Positions 4,251-32,477 of a stretch of 64,000 nucleotides of DNA are shown here, one piece after another. The stretch's first letter is position 1. Each line of letters starts with the position of its first letter. The stretch comes from Geothrix sp. SG200. Its GTDB lineage: Bacteria > Acidobacteriota > Holophagae > Holophagales > Holophagaceae. Below the pieces are notes generated by a model. That model was not told the DNA's origin. It searched no databases and saw only the letters and a program-made list of their open reading frames with translations. The stretch is from positions 372,001 to 436,000 of the forward strand of contig NZ_JAKZFR010000001.1 of assembly GCF_022808935.1 (NCBI RefSeq). Direction: 5' to 3'. The position numbers and the translations under genes are program-made.

Positions 4251-4799
4251 CTAAAGCAGCCGTTTCTGGCCCTTGGGGTGGCTCAGGACGACCTCCTTGA
4301 CCCGGTGGATCCAGCCCGGCCGGTCCTTGGGATCCAGGCGCTCGAAGGGGATGGACCGTTCCTCCAGGAGCTTGTCCACCAGCTTGTCGATGGCCTCGGC
4401 GAAGAAAGTGTCCGTGTCCCGCACGCCGTCCGCCGCCAGGTGCCCTGAGAACGGCACCTTGAAGAGCAGGTCGTAGCCCTTCATCCAGTGGTGCATGAAG
4501 CGCTCGATGGGCAGCTGGCGGCCGAAGGCCAGCATCATGTAGGCGTAGTTGTCGAGCACGCTTCGGTCGCACACCACCACGTCATGCTGGCTGGCGGAAC
4601 GGATCTCCTCGGCCATCTGGGTGAAGAAGATCCAGGTCTGCGCCTCGAGGGAGGTCTTCTGGTTGATGGGCAGGGGCGAGAGGCGCGCCACCTCCTTCAC
4701 GATGTCCACATGGACCCCGTCCCGCTTGAGGGCCGCGGCCAGCTCATAGCAGAGCGTGGTCTTGCCCACGCCGTGCGTGCCGATGAAGGCGATCTTCAC
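4251..4799 (-). CDS. P-loop ATPase/kinase-like protein (AAA_28-type)
   Basis: 182-residue nucleotide-binding protein. The Walker A motif GTHGVGKTT starts at residue 7, and VVVCDRSVLDNYAYM near residue 80 is a Walker B/kinase-like strand, as in small AAA_28 or deoxynucleoside-kinase-like proteins of unknown substrate. The start is GTG 4799: an ATG-started reading extends upstream only through the adjacent repeats, whereas GTG 4799 has GGAGG six bases before it and gives the standard VKIAFIGTHG beginning. The GTG overlaps the TGA of the preceding 46-codon repeat ORF (GTGA), and its ribosome-binding site is buried in the hairpin at 4802-4816. It is the last gene of the gpmI-PAS-repeat chain. Confidence 0.85.
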   Translation of the reverse strand: MKIAFIGTHGVGKTTLCYELAAALKRDGVHVDIVKEVARLSPLPINQKTSLEAQTWIFFTQMAEEIRSASQHDVVVCDRSVLDNYAYMMLAFGRQLPIERFMHHWMKGYDLLFKVPFSGHLAADGVRDTDTFFAEAIDKLVDKLLEERSIPFERLDPKDRPGWIHRVKEVVLSHPKGQKRLL

Positions 4800-4936
4800 T
4801 CGGCACCTCCGGTGCCTCGCCCTTCGGGCTTCGCCTTCGGCAAAGTGGCCCTCCATGTATCGGCCAGCGCACCGCGCTGTCCTCCCACGCGCTCGCGCTC
4901 GTGGACATGGAGCCTTTGCTGTCGCTGCATGCTCAC
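4796..4936 (-). CDS. 46-codon coupling ORF, repeat copy 2
   Basis: Second of two tandem mini-ORFs. It starts at GTG 4936, overlapping the TGA of copy 1 (GTGA), and stops at TGA 4798-4796, overlapping the GTG of the ATPase gene. The predicted peptide is Arg/Gly/Ala-rich, near-identical to copy 1, and resembles no protein family I know. Each copy carries its own GGAGG and start. It may be a real leader peptide that couples translation, or a by-product of a repeat that happens to stay in frame. Treat expression as unproven. Confidence 0.4.
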   Translation of the reverse strand: MSMQRQQRLHVHERERVGGQRGALADTWRATLPKAKPEGRGTGGAE

Positions 4937-5069
4937 TCGGCACCTCCGGTGCCTCGCCCTTCGGGCTTCGCCTTCGGCAAAGTGGCCCTCCATGTATCGG
5001 CGAGCGCACCGCGCAGTCCTCCTGCTCGCTGGCGCTCGTGGACATGGAGCCTTCGCTGTCGCTCCGTGC
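4796..5069. repeat. Two tandem 137-bp direct repeats
   Basis: Copies at 4796-4932 and 4933-5069 are mostly identical, with differences clustered in the middle and at the promoter-proximal end. On the minus strand each copy ends in a perfect hairpin, GGCACC-GGA-GGTGCC (4802-4816 and 4939-4953), that contains the GGAGG ribosome-binding site of the next start codon, followed by GTGA. The repeat thus copies a complete stop/start junction. The stretch TGTCCTCCC followed by a GCTCG-rich segment (about 4877-4900) recurs near 51201 in the tRNA-linked array. Confidence 0.9.
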
Positions 5070-5073
5070 TCAT
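4933..5073 (-). CDS. 46-codon coupling ORF, repeat copy 1
   Basis: First of the two mini-ORFs downstream of the PAS sensor gene. ATG 5073 overlaps the sensor's TGA stop (ATGA), and the ORF ends in TGA 4935-4933, which overlaps the GTG of copy 2. It has the same length as copy 2 (141 nt) and a nearly identical second half. No signal peptide, membrane segment or known motif is visible. The overlaps at both ends suggest translational coupling; whether the peptide matters is unknown. Confidence 0.4.
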   Translation of the reverse strand: MSTERQRRLHVHERQRAGGLRGALADTWRATLPKAKPEGRGTGGAE

Positions 5074-6683
5074 GATCCGTCCCCTTCCGTCCTCTGGGCA
5101 CGGAGTGCCTGCATTTCATCCCTGAGCTTCTGGGCGCAGTCGGGGCAGACGCCGTGGGTGAAGGTGGCTTCCGTGTGCTCGGAAAGGTAGGTCTCGATCT
5201 GGCTCCAGTAGCCGTGGTCGTCTCGGACCTTCTTGCAGCTGCTGCAGATGGGGAGCATGCCGCTGAGCTGCTTCACGTCGGCCAGCGCCTGGGTCAGCCC
5301 TTCGATCAGCCGCTCCCGCTCCGCCTCCATGCGCCGGCGTTCCGTGATGTCGCGGGTGACGCCCTGGAAGCCCAGCAGGCGTCCATCCTCGCCCCAGACG
5401 ATCCGCCACTGCGCTTCGACCTGGATCTCCCGGCCATCCCTGCGCCTCACGGTCGCCTGCATCAGGTCATCCTCGAAGGGTTGGGACCCCGGGGGGAGCT
5501 GGTGGGCCCGGGCCATGCGCTCCCGCACGATTTCGCTGCCCTTCCGGGAAAGGGCTCGCTCCTCGGGACCGAGGGCCATGAATTCTTCGGGGGTCCAACC
5601 CCGCTGGCGGAGGATGGAGGGGCTGATGTAGGTGAGCCGCCCCTCGGGGTCCATGGACCAGATGACATCCCCGAGGTTCTCGGCCAGCAACCGGTACTTG
5701 GCCTCCTGGGCGGCCAGCTGGGCTTGATCCTCCATCTGGCGGATCCAGGAGGAGCGGGCCTGCCAGCCCAGGGCCAGGGTGAGGGCGGCCAGGCCGAGGA
5801 CCGCCGCGGCGGCGAAGGCCGCCTGGTGGCGCCAGGTCCGGAGGTACTCGGACTGGGCCAGGCCCACGAGGATGTAGAACACGGGCCGGCCGGTCTTCCG
5901 CATGACGTAGGTCCGGTGCACGCCATCCAGGACCGACCGCTCGCTGAAGTGGAAGGTGCTGTTCCCTGCCTGCACGGCCCGCAGGTAGGTTCCCTGGATC
6001 CGAGTCGTGCCGGTCATCCGCTGTTGGCCCTCGAAGTCCGGGTACCGGGCCAGGAGGCTGAGATCCTGGCCCCGCAGGGACACGGATCCGTGCCGGCCCA
6101 CATCCAGGTGGGACATGGTCCGGGCCAGCTGCTCCGTGGGGAGCATGGCGAAGACCCCGCCCGCGAACCGCCCATCGGCGCGGACCATCCGGCGGGCCAG
6201 GACGATGACCCAGGCTCCCGAGGGCCCCCGGACGGGCCGCGAGATGGCCAACTCATCCCCGGCCAGTGCCTTGAGCTGGGCGAAGAAAGGCTGGTCCCCC
6301 ACGTTTCCGGGGGCCTGGACCGGGGCGGCCTGCAGGACCCGGCCGGTGGCATCCGCCACCTGCAGGGAGGTCAGCAGGCCCACCCGCCGGAACTGGGTCT
6401 GGACGAGGGCTCCGATCCGGTGGTGGCCCGGGTCCTGGTGGGCTTCGTCCTGGATGGACTGGAGGGTCAGGTCGATCCGGTGGACCGTGTCCTCCACGTT
6501 GTCCTCCAGGACCTCAGCCAGGTTCTGCGTCGCGGCCTCCGCGCGCTCCACGTAATGCCGGTGACTCAGGACCAGCAGCCACGCCGCGGTGAAGGCGGCC
6601 AGGAGGTTGAACAGGACCAGCAGTGCCCCCACGCCCTTGATGAAGGTGGACGGGCTGAGCCTGGGGCGGGGCCGGTCGGTCAT
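5070..6683 (-). CDS. Membrane sensor with PAS domain and C-terminal Cys cluster
   Basis: 537-residue membrane sensor. A transmembrane helix near residues 14-38 and a second near 287-310 enclose an extracytoplasmic Cache/PDC-like sensing region. A PAS domain follows at about 335-455, with the typical ending GFQGVTRDITERRRMEAE. The last 60 residues hold two CxxC pairs (ICSSCKK and GVCPDC) around a GYW motif, a small probable zinc-ribbon seen at the end of some PAS proteins. No histidine kinase, GGDEF, EAL or methyl-accepting domain is present, so the output is unknown. It starts 9 bp after the gpmI stop and overlaps the next mini-ORF by ATGA. Confidence 0.8.
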   Translation of the reverse strand: MTDRPRPRLSPSTFIKGVGALLVLFNLLAAFTAAWLLVLSHRHYVERAEAATQNLAEVLEDNVEDTVHRIDLTLQSIQDEAHQDPGHHRIGALVQTQFRRVGLLTSLQVADATGRVLQAAPVQAPGNVGDQPFFAQLKALAGDELAISRPVRGPSGAWVIVLARRMVRADGRFAGGVFAMLPTEQLARTMSHLDVGRHGSVSLRGQDLSLLARYPDFEGQQRMTGTTRIQGTYLRAVQAGNSTFHFSERSVLDGVHRTYVMRKTGRPVFYILVGLAQSEYLRTWRHQAAFAAAAVLGLAALTLALGWQARSSWIRQMEDQAQLAAQEAKYRLLAENLGDVIWSMDPEGRLTYISPSILRQRGWTPEEFMALGPEERALSRKGSEIVRERMARAHQLPPGSQPFEDDLMQATVRRRDGREIQVEAQWRIVWGEDGRLLGFQGVTRDITERRRMEAERERLIEGLTQALADVKQLSGMLPICSSCKKVRDDHGYWSQIETYLSEHTEATFTHGVCPDCAQKLRDEMQALRAQRTEGDGS

Positions 6684-6692
6684 GCGATCTCG

Positions 6693-8216
6693 TCAGAACA
6701 GGCTCGCGCCGTCCATGGCCTGGGGCTGGGGCAGACCGAAGAGCTTCAGGAGGGTGGGGGCCACGTCGCTGAGGGCGCCTCCGGCTCGCAGCTGGAAGGC
6801 CTCGAAGCCCCGGGCCACGAGGACCGCGGGGACCGGATTCAGGGTGTGCGAGGTGTGGGGATTGCCGCCTTCGTCTCGCATGCACTCGCAGTTGCCGTGG
6901 TCGGCGGTGATGAAGAGGGCGCCGCCCATGGCCAGGGTGGCGTCGGCGATGCGGCCCACGGCGGCGTCCACGGCCTCGCAGGCGGTCACGGCGGCTTTCA
7001 GGTCCCCGGTGTGGCCGATCATGTCGGGGTTGGCCAGGTTGCAGACCAGGAACCGGTACTCGCGGGAGCGGATGGCGGATTCGAGGCCCTGGCTCACGTC
7101 GGCCAGGCTCATCTCGGGCTGCAGGTCGTAGGTGGCCACCTTGGGGGAGGGCACCAGGCGGCGCTCCTCGGCCTCGAAGGGCGCCTCCCGGCCGCCGTTG
7201 AAGAAGTAGGTGACGTGGGCGTACTTCTCGGTTTCGGCCGTGCGGAACTGCTTCCAGCCCTGGGCGGAGATGAGCTCGCCCAGGATGTGCTCCAGGCTCT
7301 GGGGCGGGTAGGCCACGGAGACGTAGGGATCCAGCTCGATGTCGTAAGCCGTGAAGGTGACCAGCCTCACCGCCGGCCGGTGCTTCGGCGCGAAGCCCTT
7401 GAAGTCCGGATGCACCAGGGCATGGCACATCTGGCGGGCCCGGTCGGCGCGGAAGTTGAACCACAGCACGCCGTCCCCATCGGCGATGGGGTGGAAGGCG
7501 GCGAGCTTGGTGGGGGCCACGAACTCGTCCGTCTCGCCGCGGGCGTAGGCGGCCTGGATGGCGGCCAGGGCGTCCGGCGCGGCCTGGGGGGCCTCGCCGT
7601 CCACGTAGAGCTTCCAGGCCTGCTCCGTGCGCTCCCAGCGCTTGTCCCGGTCCATGGCCGTGTAGCGCCCGCAGACGGAGCCGATCGTCACCAGCGGCGT
7701 GTTCCGCAGCTGGAAGGCCAGCCACTGGAGGTAGCCGTCGGCGCTCTTCTGGCCCGTGTCCCGGCCGTCCGTGATGGCGTGGATGGTGGTGGGCACGCCC
7801 TCGGCCTGGGCCCACTGGGCCAGCGCCACGAGGTGGTTCTGGTGGCTGTGCACGCCGCCGTCGCTCACGAGGCCCATGAGGTGGAGCCGCTTCCCGGAGG
7901 CCTTCAGCCCCGCCAGCAGGGCCCCCATGGCCGCATTCTCCCGGAAGGTTCCCCGCCGGATGGCCGCGTCGATGCGGGTCAGCTCCTGCCATACCACGCG
8001 GCCCGCGCCCAGGTTCATGTGCCCCACCTCCGAGTTGCCGAACTGCCCGTCGGGCAGGCCCACGGCCTCGCCGCTGGTGAAGAGCTGGGTGGTGGCGTAG
8101 GCCTTCCGCAGCGCGTTGAAGCGCGGCATGGCGGCGACGAAGGTGGCGTCGAAGGCGTTCCGGGGTCCATCGCCGAAGCCGTCGAGGATGAGGAGGGTGA
8201 TGGGGCCGGGGATCAT
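6693..8216 (-). CDS. gpmI: 2,3-bisphosphoglycerate-independent phosphoglycerate mutase
   Basis: Interconverts 3- and 2-phosphoglycerate in glycolysis/gluconeogenesis using two metal ions. 507 residues, normal for GpmI. LLILDGFGDG at the N-terminus supplies a metal-binding Asp, GNSEVGHMNLGAGR holds the nucleophilic Ser, and FITADHGNCE carries the C-terminal metal ligands. ATG 8216 is chosen because MIPGPITLLILDGFG is the family start, with AAAGG upstream; longer starts would run into the inverted-repeat arm at 8228-8262. It heads a minus-strand chain with the PAS sensor. Confidence 0.96.
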   Translation of the reverse strand: MIPGPITLLILDGFGDGPRNAFDATFVAAMPRFNALRKAYATTQLFTSGEAVGLPDGQFGNSEVGHMNLGAGRVVWQELTRIDAAIRRGTFRENAAMGALLAGLKASGKRLHLMGLVSDGGVHSHQNHLVALAQWAQAEGVPTTIHAITDGRDTGQKSADGYLQWLAFQLRNTPLVTIGSVCGRYTAMDRDKRWERTEQAWKLYVDGEAPQAAPDALAAIQAAYARGETDEFVAPTKLAAFHPIADGDGVLWFNFRADRARQMCHALVHPDFKGFAPKHRPAVRLVTFTAYDIELDPYVSVAYPPQSLEHILGELISAQGWKQFRTAETEKYAHVTYFFNGGREAPFEAEERRLVPSPKVATYDLQPEMSLADVSQGLESAIRSREYRFLVCNLANPDMIGHTGDLKAAVTACEAVDAAVGRIADATLAMGGALFITADHGNCECMRDEGGNPHTSHTLNPVPAVLVARGFEAFQLRAGGALSDVAPTLLKLFGLPQPQAMDGASLF

Positions 8217-8227
8217 GAATGCCTTTG

Positions 8228-8262
8228 GAACGCGAAGGGCGCGAAGGGGGCGAAGAAGGCGA
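8228..8262 (+). repeat. Left terminal inverted repeat of the GxxExxY cassette
   Basis: 35-bp purine-rich arm made of reiterated gcgaag words. Its inverted partner is 8656-8690; by eye 28 of 35 positions pair, including the outer ten (gaacgcgaag). It sits 11 bp upstream of the gpmI start codon. Confidence 0.75.
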
Positions 8263-8265
8263 ATC

Positions 8266-8655
8266 CTACTCTGGAACTTGATGGACGACGCGTTCCCATT
8301 CCAGTTTCGGATGGGATCCAAAATTGATCAGAAGCCCAACGTGGAGCCCCGTGGCCTTCAGGTAGTTCACCACCTGGGCTCGCTCCAGCAGACCGAGCTT
8401 GGCGACGGCCTTGAGCTCCACGATCAGGACGCCTCCGACGACCAAATCCGCCTGGAATCGTTTGGACAGGGGCTTTCCCCGGTACATGATCTCCAGGCTC
8501 ACTTCGCGTTCAAAGGGGATGTCCCTGGCCTCAAGCTCCCGCGCCAACGCCTCAGCGTAGACCGATTCCAGGAACCCGGCCCCTAGGTGCCGATGGACAT
8601 CGATCGCGGCCCCGATCACCGCGAAAACCTCGTCCTTGAGAGCCAGATCCTTCAT
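8266..8655 (-). CDS. GxxExxY family protein (PD-(D/E)XK nuclease-like)
   Basis: 129-residue member of the GxxExxY family, named for the motif seen here as GFLESVY near residue 27. FQADLVVGGVLIVELKAV looks like the D...ExK core of a PD-(D/E)XK nuclease fold, and the C-terminal region LLINFG is also typical. The family's function is not established. The gene almost fills the space between two inverted 35-bp arms (8228-8262 and 8656-8690), so gene plus arms look like one compact mobile cassette. ATG 8655 abuts the right arm directly. Confidence 0.85.
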   Translation of the reverse strand: MKDLALKDEVFAVIGAAIDVHRHLGAGFLESVYAEALARELEARDIPFEREVSLEIMYRGKPLSKRFQADLVVGGVLIVELKAVAKLGLLERAQVVNYLKATGLHVGLLINFGSHPKLEWERVVHQVPE

Positions 8656-8690
8656 TCGCGTCCTTCGCTCTATTTGCGCTCTTCGCGTTC
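8656..8690 (-). repeat. Right terminal inverted repeat of the GxxExxY cassette
   Basis: Inverted partner of 8228-8262. On the minus strand it also supplies the last six codons and the TAG stop of the upstream ORF6N paralogue (protein end EREERK), which indicates that the cassette entered the 3' end of that gene. Confidence 0.75.
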
Positions 8691-9176
8691 TGTTTTCCCG
8701 CGCTGCCCGGACTTCAGCCCATGGGGCAGGTCTTCTTCGTTGACGAAGCCGATGGGGCGCTGCTTCGGGGCGCCCTCCACCTCCTCGCCCTGGATGACCT
8801 TGATGAGCGTATCCAGCTTCTGCTCCAGGGCCGTGACGCGCAAGGACAGCTCCGCCTGGGCCGTGATCACGTGCCGGGCCTCGGCGAAGGCGGGCAGGAG
8901 CTTGAGCAGGGCCGGCTCGTGTCCGGGCACCAGGCCTGTCAGCAGGGCGGCTCCGGCCTCGGTGAAGGCCAGCACGGGGGCATCCGGGATGCGCTGGCGC
9001 TCCTCGGCGGTCAGGTGGAAGACCAGGGCCTCGGGGAAGCGGTCGGGCTGGGCGGTCACCAGGGCCGCGAGGGCCTTGGCCTCCAGCCCCAGCTGGTCTG
9101 CCAGGGCCTGGTCGGGGAGGGCCGCGGCATCGCGGACCCAGAGCAGGCGGGAGAGGATCTCGACGGGGGCGGCCAT
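8670..9176 (-). CDS. Diverged ORF6N-like protein
   Basis: 168 residues, recognisable as a degenerate paralogue of the ORF6N protein encoded just upstream (9179-9685). It has the same overall order: helical N-terminus, LVFHLTAEERQRI in place of [22 protein letters not shown] in place of FTEHGIAML, a coiled-coil region, then RPIGF. ATG 9176 is preferred over GTG 9182 because AGGAAG lies at the right distance. Its stop and last six codons lie in the right arm of the GxxExxY cassette, so the original end was probably replaced. ORF6N domains occur in phage antirepressor-like proteins; the role here is unknown. Confidence 0.65.
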   Translation of the reverse strand: MAAPVEILSRLLWVRDAAALPDQALADQLGLEAKALAALVTAQPDRFPEALVFHLTAEERQRIPDAPVLAFTEAGAALLTGLVPGHEPALLKLLPAFAEARHVITAQAELSLRVTALEQKLDTLIKVIQGEEVEGAPKQRPIGFVNEEDLPHGLKSGQRGKTEREERK

Positions 9177-9178
9177 GG

Positions 9179-9685
9179 TCACTTCCTCGGACGGAAGCCG
9201 ATGGGCTTCTTGGCTGGGACGGGTGGCTCCATCAAGTCCCGGATCGCTTCAAATACCACCCGGAACTGGCCATCATACTTGCGTTCCTGGGCTTCGAGCT
9301 TTCTGGCGAGATCGGCATGGGAAGCCAGAATGCCCCGGAGGCGCGTGAAGGCTCGCATGATCTCGATGTTCACGGCGATGGCCTGGTCGCTGTTGAGAAC
9401 GCTCGAAAGCATGGCAATGCCATGTTCGGTGAATGCGTAGGGAGCCGTTCTGCGACCGCCCCAGGCACTTGAGATCACCGTTTGTGATCTCAAGTCGGCC
9501 CATTCCTCCCCATCAAGCTGGAACATGAAGTCGGCCGGAAATCGCCTGGCGTTGCGTTTGACGGCCTGGACGAGGGCCCGGGTCTCTACACCGTAGAGGG
9601 CCGCCAGGTCCGCATCGAGCATGACCCGCTCCTTTCGGAACAGGTGGATGGAATGGAAGATGCGCTCCGCCGGGAGGGCGCTCAC
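9179..9685 (-). CDS. ORF6N domain-containing protein
   Basis: 168 residues. The ORF6N domain covers the first 100 or so ([16 protein letters not shown], then [16 protein letters not shown] and [15 protein letters not shown]), followed by a coiled coil and a basic tail. ORF6N/KilA-N-type proteins are DNA-binding or antirepressor-like and usually sit in phage or mobile DNA. The start is GTG 9685, which overlaps the pyrB stop (GTGA), so this accessory gene is joined seamlessly to the pyrimidine operon. A second, diverged copy follows at once. Confidence 0.85.
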
Positions 9686-32266: not shown

Positions 32267-32477
32267 GAATTAAGCGGAGGATGGCGGAGGGGCGGAGGAG
32301 TGCGGTGGGTGGCCGGGGGTTGGTGATCGTGAGGCTGGGCCAGAGCGTTCTTTTCGCTGCTGATTTCGCAGATTGCGGCGATAGGGCCATGGCACCCCCA
32401 CGGAGCCCATGCTGAGCCGGGGCAGGTACGGTCTTTTCTCCGCTCTCCTCCGCCCCTCAGCCTTCCTCCGCTTATTC
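32267..32477. mobile_element. MITE-like element with 38-bp inverted arms
   Basis: Left arm 32267-32305 and right arm 32440-32477 are inverted copies, matching at about 35 of 38 positions with one indel. They are made of stuttering cggagg words. The 134-bp interior has no ORF. Weaker pairing (GGAAAAG on both sides) extends beyond the arms. The right arm ends 15 bp from the stop of the RND gene. Non-autonomous; it resembles the GxxExxY cassette in layout. Confidence 0.75.

Follow-up and report, generated by a model that had tools for sequence, protein, structure and literature searches.

GxxExxY genes between inverted arrays of 7-bp units: a putative class of small mobile elements with a nuclease as candidate mover

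In the genome of Geothrix sp. SG200, a short gene of the GxxExxY family fits so closely between two inverted repeats that one of them supplies the stop codon of the neighboring gene. This arrangement raises the question of whether the gene and its repeats are a mobile unit and, if so, whether the encoded protein moves it. GxxExxY genes are common and often present in multiple copies. In the open-licence literature the name turns up in two papers, in one of them in passing. We analyzed the locus within a window of 64,000 nucleotides, to which positions given without a contig name refer, and compared it with related genomes.

The GxxExxY gene occupies positions 8266..8655 on the minus strand and encodes a protein of 129 amino acids. 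Its ORF matches both TIGR04256 (E=6.5e-41, 139 bits against a cut-off of 35) and PF13366 (E=2.5e-40, 137.9 bits against a cut-off of 22). A prior sequence-only reading had placed inverted arms at 8228-8262 and 8656-8690. These arms are real and can be extended to 8228..8264 for the left arm (plus strand; the downstream arm in the orientation of the gene) and to 8654..8690 for the right arm (minus strand). The left arm thus defined is 37 nt long and 81% complementary to the right. Distances of 3 bp and 0 bp from arm to gene, also given in that reading, are correct for the original arms and the ORF at 8266-8655. The arm alignment scores 24, and the 99th percentile of 2067 random placements of the same size is 21. 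What had been described as a 35-bp inverted repeat does pair in inverted orientation, but neither arm is a single sequence: each is an array of units of approximately 7 bp, separated by short spacers. The units here are of the GCGAAG type; the window holds 9 occurrences of the pattern GCGAAGNNCGCGAA with one mismatch allowed, where 0.45 would be expected, and five of the 9 lie in the two arms of the element.

As had been claimed, the adjacent gene takes its six final residues and its stop codon from the right arm: on the minus strand, bases 8690-8670 read GAA CGC GAA GAG CGC AAA TAG, or EREERK-stop. This neighbor (8670..9182, minus strand), which is the insertion target, had been called an ORF6N paralog. 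A clear ORF6N gene (E=5e-34) does adjoin it at 9179-9685; the match of 8670-9182 itself to PF10543 is weak (E=7.7e-6, just under the Pfam cut-off). The other flank of the target site is the gene for 2,3-bisphosphoglycerate-independent phosphoglycerate mutase (iPGM; 6693..8216, minus strand; TIGR01307, E=1.5e-190). Between the iPGM start and the C-terminus of the ORF6N-like protein, 14 congeners have 22-25 bp, where SG200 has 482 bp (8218..8699, the inserted element with its edges). It is true, then, that an arm supplies the neighbor's stop, and the empty sites of the congeners refine the point: the element took the place of the original stop-codon region. The ORF6N gene at 9179-9685 is itself found at this place in some congeners and missing from others.

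SG200 has five GxxExxY genes, each of them enclosed by inverted short-period arms close to its borders. Their unit types are GCGAAG in the window, CGCGAAT at C8:244903, CACGGAT at C1:769690, the AATCAGCGAAATCGGCGG type at C6:250141, and GCGGAGG at C1:280597. The last of these is also the unit type of a gene-less element in the window (32271..32474), with 35-nt arms that are 91% complementary and a 134-nt loop. A single conserved 35-bp terminal repeat is ruled out, as unit types differ by copy; because the arm sequence varies from copy to copy, a search with one 35-bp repeat would miss the phenomenon. The copy on C6 (L010, about G000:C6:249500-251500), with arms of its own type, lies amid clustered copies of long palindromes (ATGGGGGGCGCCAGGGCCGCGA...). 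The assembly has a long run of C near this copy, possibly an artefact.

Within the genus, 26 of 31 genomes have a GxxExxY gene, with up to ten matches each; within the phylum, 21 of 60 do. The gene was also found in Bacteroidota and Planctomycetota. We searched for arms around 126 of these genes, a non-random sample in which the genus is over-represented, by aligning the upstream flank (up to 150 bp) with the reverse-complemented 150 bp downstream. The absence of arms from the flanks of other GxxExxY genes was to have counted against the idea of a cassette. The opposite was found: 85 of the 126 genes reached an inverted-arm score of at least 20, as against 2.5% and 3.5% of controls. The median score was 24.5, compared with 11 in direct orientation, and control medians were 12 both at the 2067 random placements in the same loci and for 143 other genes. 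About a quarter of GxxExxY genes had no inverted arms, and a smaller group showed direct arms or a complete hairpin on each side. Among eight plasmid or chromid records, clear inverted arms were seen in Bacteroides finegoldii and Bernardetia; in the remaining records arms were weak, one-sided, direct or absent. Carriage by phages or viruses was not indicated by any match in viral contigs or phage records with the methods used.

Throughout, the arms consist of arrays of units of about 7 bp (CACGGAG, CACAGAG, CGCAGAG, CACCAAG, CGCCAAG, CACGAAG, CGCGAAT, CACGGAT, ACAGGAT and others) with short spacers between them. Among 12 hairpins from a single congener the units hardly vary, in contrast to the purine spacers. 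Strict pairing of spacers within these hairpins was not found, spacer matching being 0.25 within a hairpin and 0.29 between hairpins. Although the strands of hairpin elements fold stably, the combination of invariant units and unmatched spacers suggests that it is the units that are recognized, rather than perfect pairing that is selected. Each GxxExxY gene has its own matching pair of arms: the arm match score is highest within a locus (27), lower against the same unit elsewhere (18) and lowest against other units (11). Seven loci gave no match in Rfam at the gathering score.

The structure model of the 129-aa protein (pLDDT 90) has its best PDB match in SSO0001 (4ic1; Foldseek E 4.7e-5; Z 9.7, 3.6 A over 102 residues), known as a Cas4-type nuclease. 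Matches to Hjc and to further RecB-like enzymes fall within the range common for this fold, and an I-Bth0305I domain matches weakly in structure. A sequence search of solved structures yielded no relative at E up to 1. The D-ExK and QxxxY residues are kept in GxxExxY, and E30, D70, E80 and K82 occur all together in 122 of the 126 copies. The PD-(D/E)XK-like core noted earlier thus agrees with the Cas4-type match of the model and with the conservation of D70, E80 and K82. By its modeled fold, GxxExxY is a Cas4/RecB-like PD-(D/E)XK nuclease with predicted catalysis. The CGCGAAT-type copy of SG200, in which E80 is changed to K, is probably inactive.

Unit type and protein sequence vary together. 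A tree of 56 proteins from several phyla, with identities below 70%, shows 22 changes of unit class, compared with 36.9 in shuffles (minimum 32 of 500); the merging of unit classes by hand is the soft spot of this count. When units ending in AG are set against the rest, the same tree shows 6 changes, compared with 18.7 in shuffles (minimum 13), a split chosen after seeing the tree, so that the 12-class figure is the fairer test. As far as these sequences can tell, the arm unit type follows the GxxExxY protein tree.

Most hairpins of any given type contain no gene. The gene-less hairpins of one type number in the tens of copies and are found mainly in genomes with a GxxExxY gene of that type, intact or decayed. 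A pattern for CRCCAAG pairs gave 0-156 matches per congener, with 0-1 for the reversed pattern; the median was 69 in 12 genomes with the cognate gene (some of these decayed) and 11 in 19 genomes without it (p=7e-5). All six genomes with the cognate gene had CACGGAG pairs, as did 4 of the 25 without it (p=3e-4). For a third unit type the coupling was weaker (p=0.06). Genes were typed for these counts in 31 congeners, and the comparison loses sharpness on both sides through draft assemblies and decayed genes that escaped detection. Phylogenetically independent pairs on a mutS tree pointed in the same direction and were too few for significance. The hairpin census of SG200 itself covered 864 kb of 3.36 Mb. 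A comparison of 100 kb between a gene-rich and a gene-free congener gave 2 hairpins and 0, in a region too small to inform.

These hairpins might instead be 3'-end elements such as terminators or mRNA stabilizers, or older repeats spread by some other enzyme, with GxxExxY genes as passengers. Such an account would fit the location of elements directly behind stop codons and the stable folding of their strands. It would also fit the occurrence of hairpins in genomes in which no cognate gene was detected, for example those with 57 (G016) and 46 (G020) matches, and the finding of a different gene between such arms. The latter encodes a DUF4268 protein of 322 aa, a PADLOC candidate (PDC-S11), and lies between CACCAAG arms (L278 600-1660, G007:C6:11100-12155) at the site where SG200 has its CACGGAT-type GxxExxY element; hairpins of the kind that encloses DUF4268 may carry other cargo. 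Passengers, however, would not be predicted to have a unit type that follows their own protein tree, nor to possess each its own matching arm pair, with the graded scores of 27, 18 and 11. The obvious alternative mover is also missing: the Y1/RAYT family (PF01797) is absent from 42 of 47 congeners (SG200 and 41 others, hairpin-rich ones included), which rules out RAYT/IS200 as the mover. We regard the passenger account as unlikely.

The insertion history at other loci bears on a second alternative. In addition to the window, empty sites were found at serA-serC and mutS. At serA-serC a gene-bearing element is present in three species, seven have 12-15 bp, and other species have at the same place gene-less hairpins of the CGCGAAT, CGCGAAA, CACCAAG, CGCCAAG and CACGAAG types. 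In two genomes (G096 and G102) the serA-serC hairpin has the unit type of the SG200 element around a short loop only, and a related GxxExxY gene is located at purH-alaS in the same arm type. At mutS the element occurs in several species, a gap only in others, and a decayed copy in one. No target duplication is visible at the junctions, where the nearest relatives are too diverged to read. From this comparison the gene with its arms is a discrete inserted unit, and its insertion history suggests mobility. The proposal that the gene is the sole cargo of a mobile cassette holds in that respect, with empty sites at three loci, and fails in another, since most hairpins are gene-less and one pair of arms holds DUF4268. 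Recent duplicates within a genome are few, which suggests that activity is slow or episodic.

The re-use of the same intergenic sites across species, the scarcity of duplicates and the decayed copies would also be expected of a homing-type selfish gene, whose nuclease would cut empty sites, the gene then being copied in by repair, with arms as recombination borders and gene-less hairpins as decayed remains. An arm-like CTTCGCG stretch at the empty window site of several congeners is consistent with this. The other mapped empty sites lack arm-like sequence, so that arm homology at the target is not a general rule, and allelic homing with gene loss would not be enough to produce gene-less hairpins of one type dispersed in tens over unrelated sites; homing appears improbable to us. 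We give as little credence to a non-mobile role in regulation or defense, in which the nuclease would use the arms as operators or processing sites to influence its own expression or to act on host DNA: it would suit the co-variation of gene and arm type and the small defense-like genes nearby (both ORF6N-type genes upstream of the element, 8670-9685, match PADLOC candidate PDC-S05) or between arms (DUF4268), but leaves the empty sites, the tens of gene-less copies and the inverted orientation of the downstream arm unexplained, and the GxxExxY protein has no PADLOC match.

We therefore return to mobility served by the element's own nuclease. It seems to us rather likely that 8228-8690 belongs to a class of small, widespread mobile elements, in which inverted arrays of approximately 7-bp units enclose a GxxExxY gene or a short loop and which a nuclease drives. 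The broader proposal, that in several phyla a new class of bacterial mobile DNA, hairpins of 7-bp arrays, owes its mobility in cis and in trans to GxxExxY proteins as stand-alone Cas4/RecB-like nucleases whose specificity co-evolves with the unit, could as easily prove wrong as right. Each lineage has one unit type, and the two inverted arrays are able to form a hairpin. The Cas4/RecB-like PD-(D/E)XK nuclease would bind its own unit type and cut at or near the folded or paired arms, and the hairpin, released or copied, would then enter gaps at the 3' ends of genes. The nuclease would also move gene-less hairpins of its own type in trans, as RAYTs are thought to do with REPINs. The earlier suggestion that the nuclease moves the cassette survives as a candidacy: with unit type tracking the protein tree and gene-less hairpins tracking the cognate gene, GxxExxY appears to be the best candidate for the mover. 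Of 82 armed elements, 66 start close to where an upstream open frame on the same strand as the gene ends, 52 of them within 25 nt of its stop, figures that have no matched background and count open frames unchecked as genes. Judging from position, GxxExxY is likely expressed by read-through from the upstream gene.

The closest known parallel is that of REPIN and REP elements with RAYT (TnpA-REP) transposases, termed "REPtrons"; "TIRtrons" have been noted in Acidobacteria (PMC3116915, PMC3733652). In both systems tens of short palindromes lie between genes, and about one dedicated gene per repeat type is bordered by palindromes of the same kind; action in trans is presumed. As in a REPtron, dispersed intergenic palindromes match the repeats around the gene. 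RAYTs, however, are HUH/Y1 enzymes, whereas the partner here is a PD-(D/E)XK nuclease (PF13366), and in place of one tagged palindrome there are arrays of 7-bp units with variable loops. REPtron palindromes end on one side in a GTAG (or CGTC) tag; no constant tetranucleotide was apparent in the present hairpins viewed by eye. The best reading by analogy is that the system works like REPIN/RAYT and may be driven by an unrelated nuclease family; since the defining enzyme is absent, we do not describe it as a member.

MITEs and autonomous DDE insertion sequences are similar in that a gene-bearing element and its gene-less copies end in the same inverted repeats, and in that empty sites are clean. 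They differ in that GxxExxY is the only gene of the present element, which has no DDE transposase, in the lack of a visible target duplication (with the above caveat on diverged junctions), and in that copies share units rather than a near-identical full sequence. Cas4/RecB-type nucleases such as SSO0001 are the best match in fold and in the D-ExK and QxxxY residues, but are about 200 residues long rather than 129, and GxxExxY is found outside a CRISPR or RecBCD setting, in a hairpin element of its own. TnsA of Tn7 and the PD-(D/E)XK homing endonucleases belong to the same superfamily and serve mobile DNA, as is proposed for GxxExxY. TnsA works with TnsB, unlike the lone nuclease of these elements, and homing endonucleases come with neither terminal arrays of units nor dispersed relatives that lack the gene.

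In the open-licence literature, which is part of the whole, neither PF13366 nor nucleases with miniature inverted repeats led to a description of such elements; a prior one may exist elsewhere. The novelty rests on the class of enzyme, and on a stricter view these could be a version of hairpin elements with a dedicated enzyme. If the proposal is true, it would explain the GxxExxY family, provide an origin for many short-period repeats of environmental genomes, and add a nuclease superfamily not known to move DNA alone. Specificity is directly testable by pairing proteins with arms, since unit type and protein are particular to each element.

Several additional features were observed. At L130 (G093:C317:3375-4379) two GxxExxY genes encoding an identical protein are arranged in tandem, 666 bp apart; this is a recent local duplication. 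CACGGAT-type arms about 490 bp apart at L279 360-860 (G014:C1:602963-603450) enclose a 72-aa ORF without a Pfam match. Some CACCAAG hairpins at serA-serC (L183, L194, L206) include an extra internal palindrome, TCTCGGTATCGCC...GGCGATAC, which may belong to another hairpin family nested in the first. Within the window, a 137-bp unit is present in two tandem copies, 93% alike, at 4796-5072, beside a gene at 5070-6683. Hairpins with CTTCAGT-like units, for which no GxxExxY gene of this type was seen, are located at G000:C1:269536, C1:825357 and L323 19601-19671, and possibly represent a further unit type.
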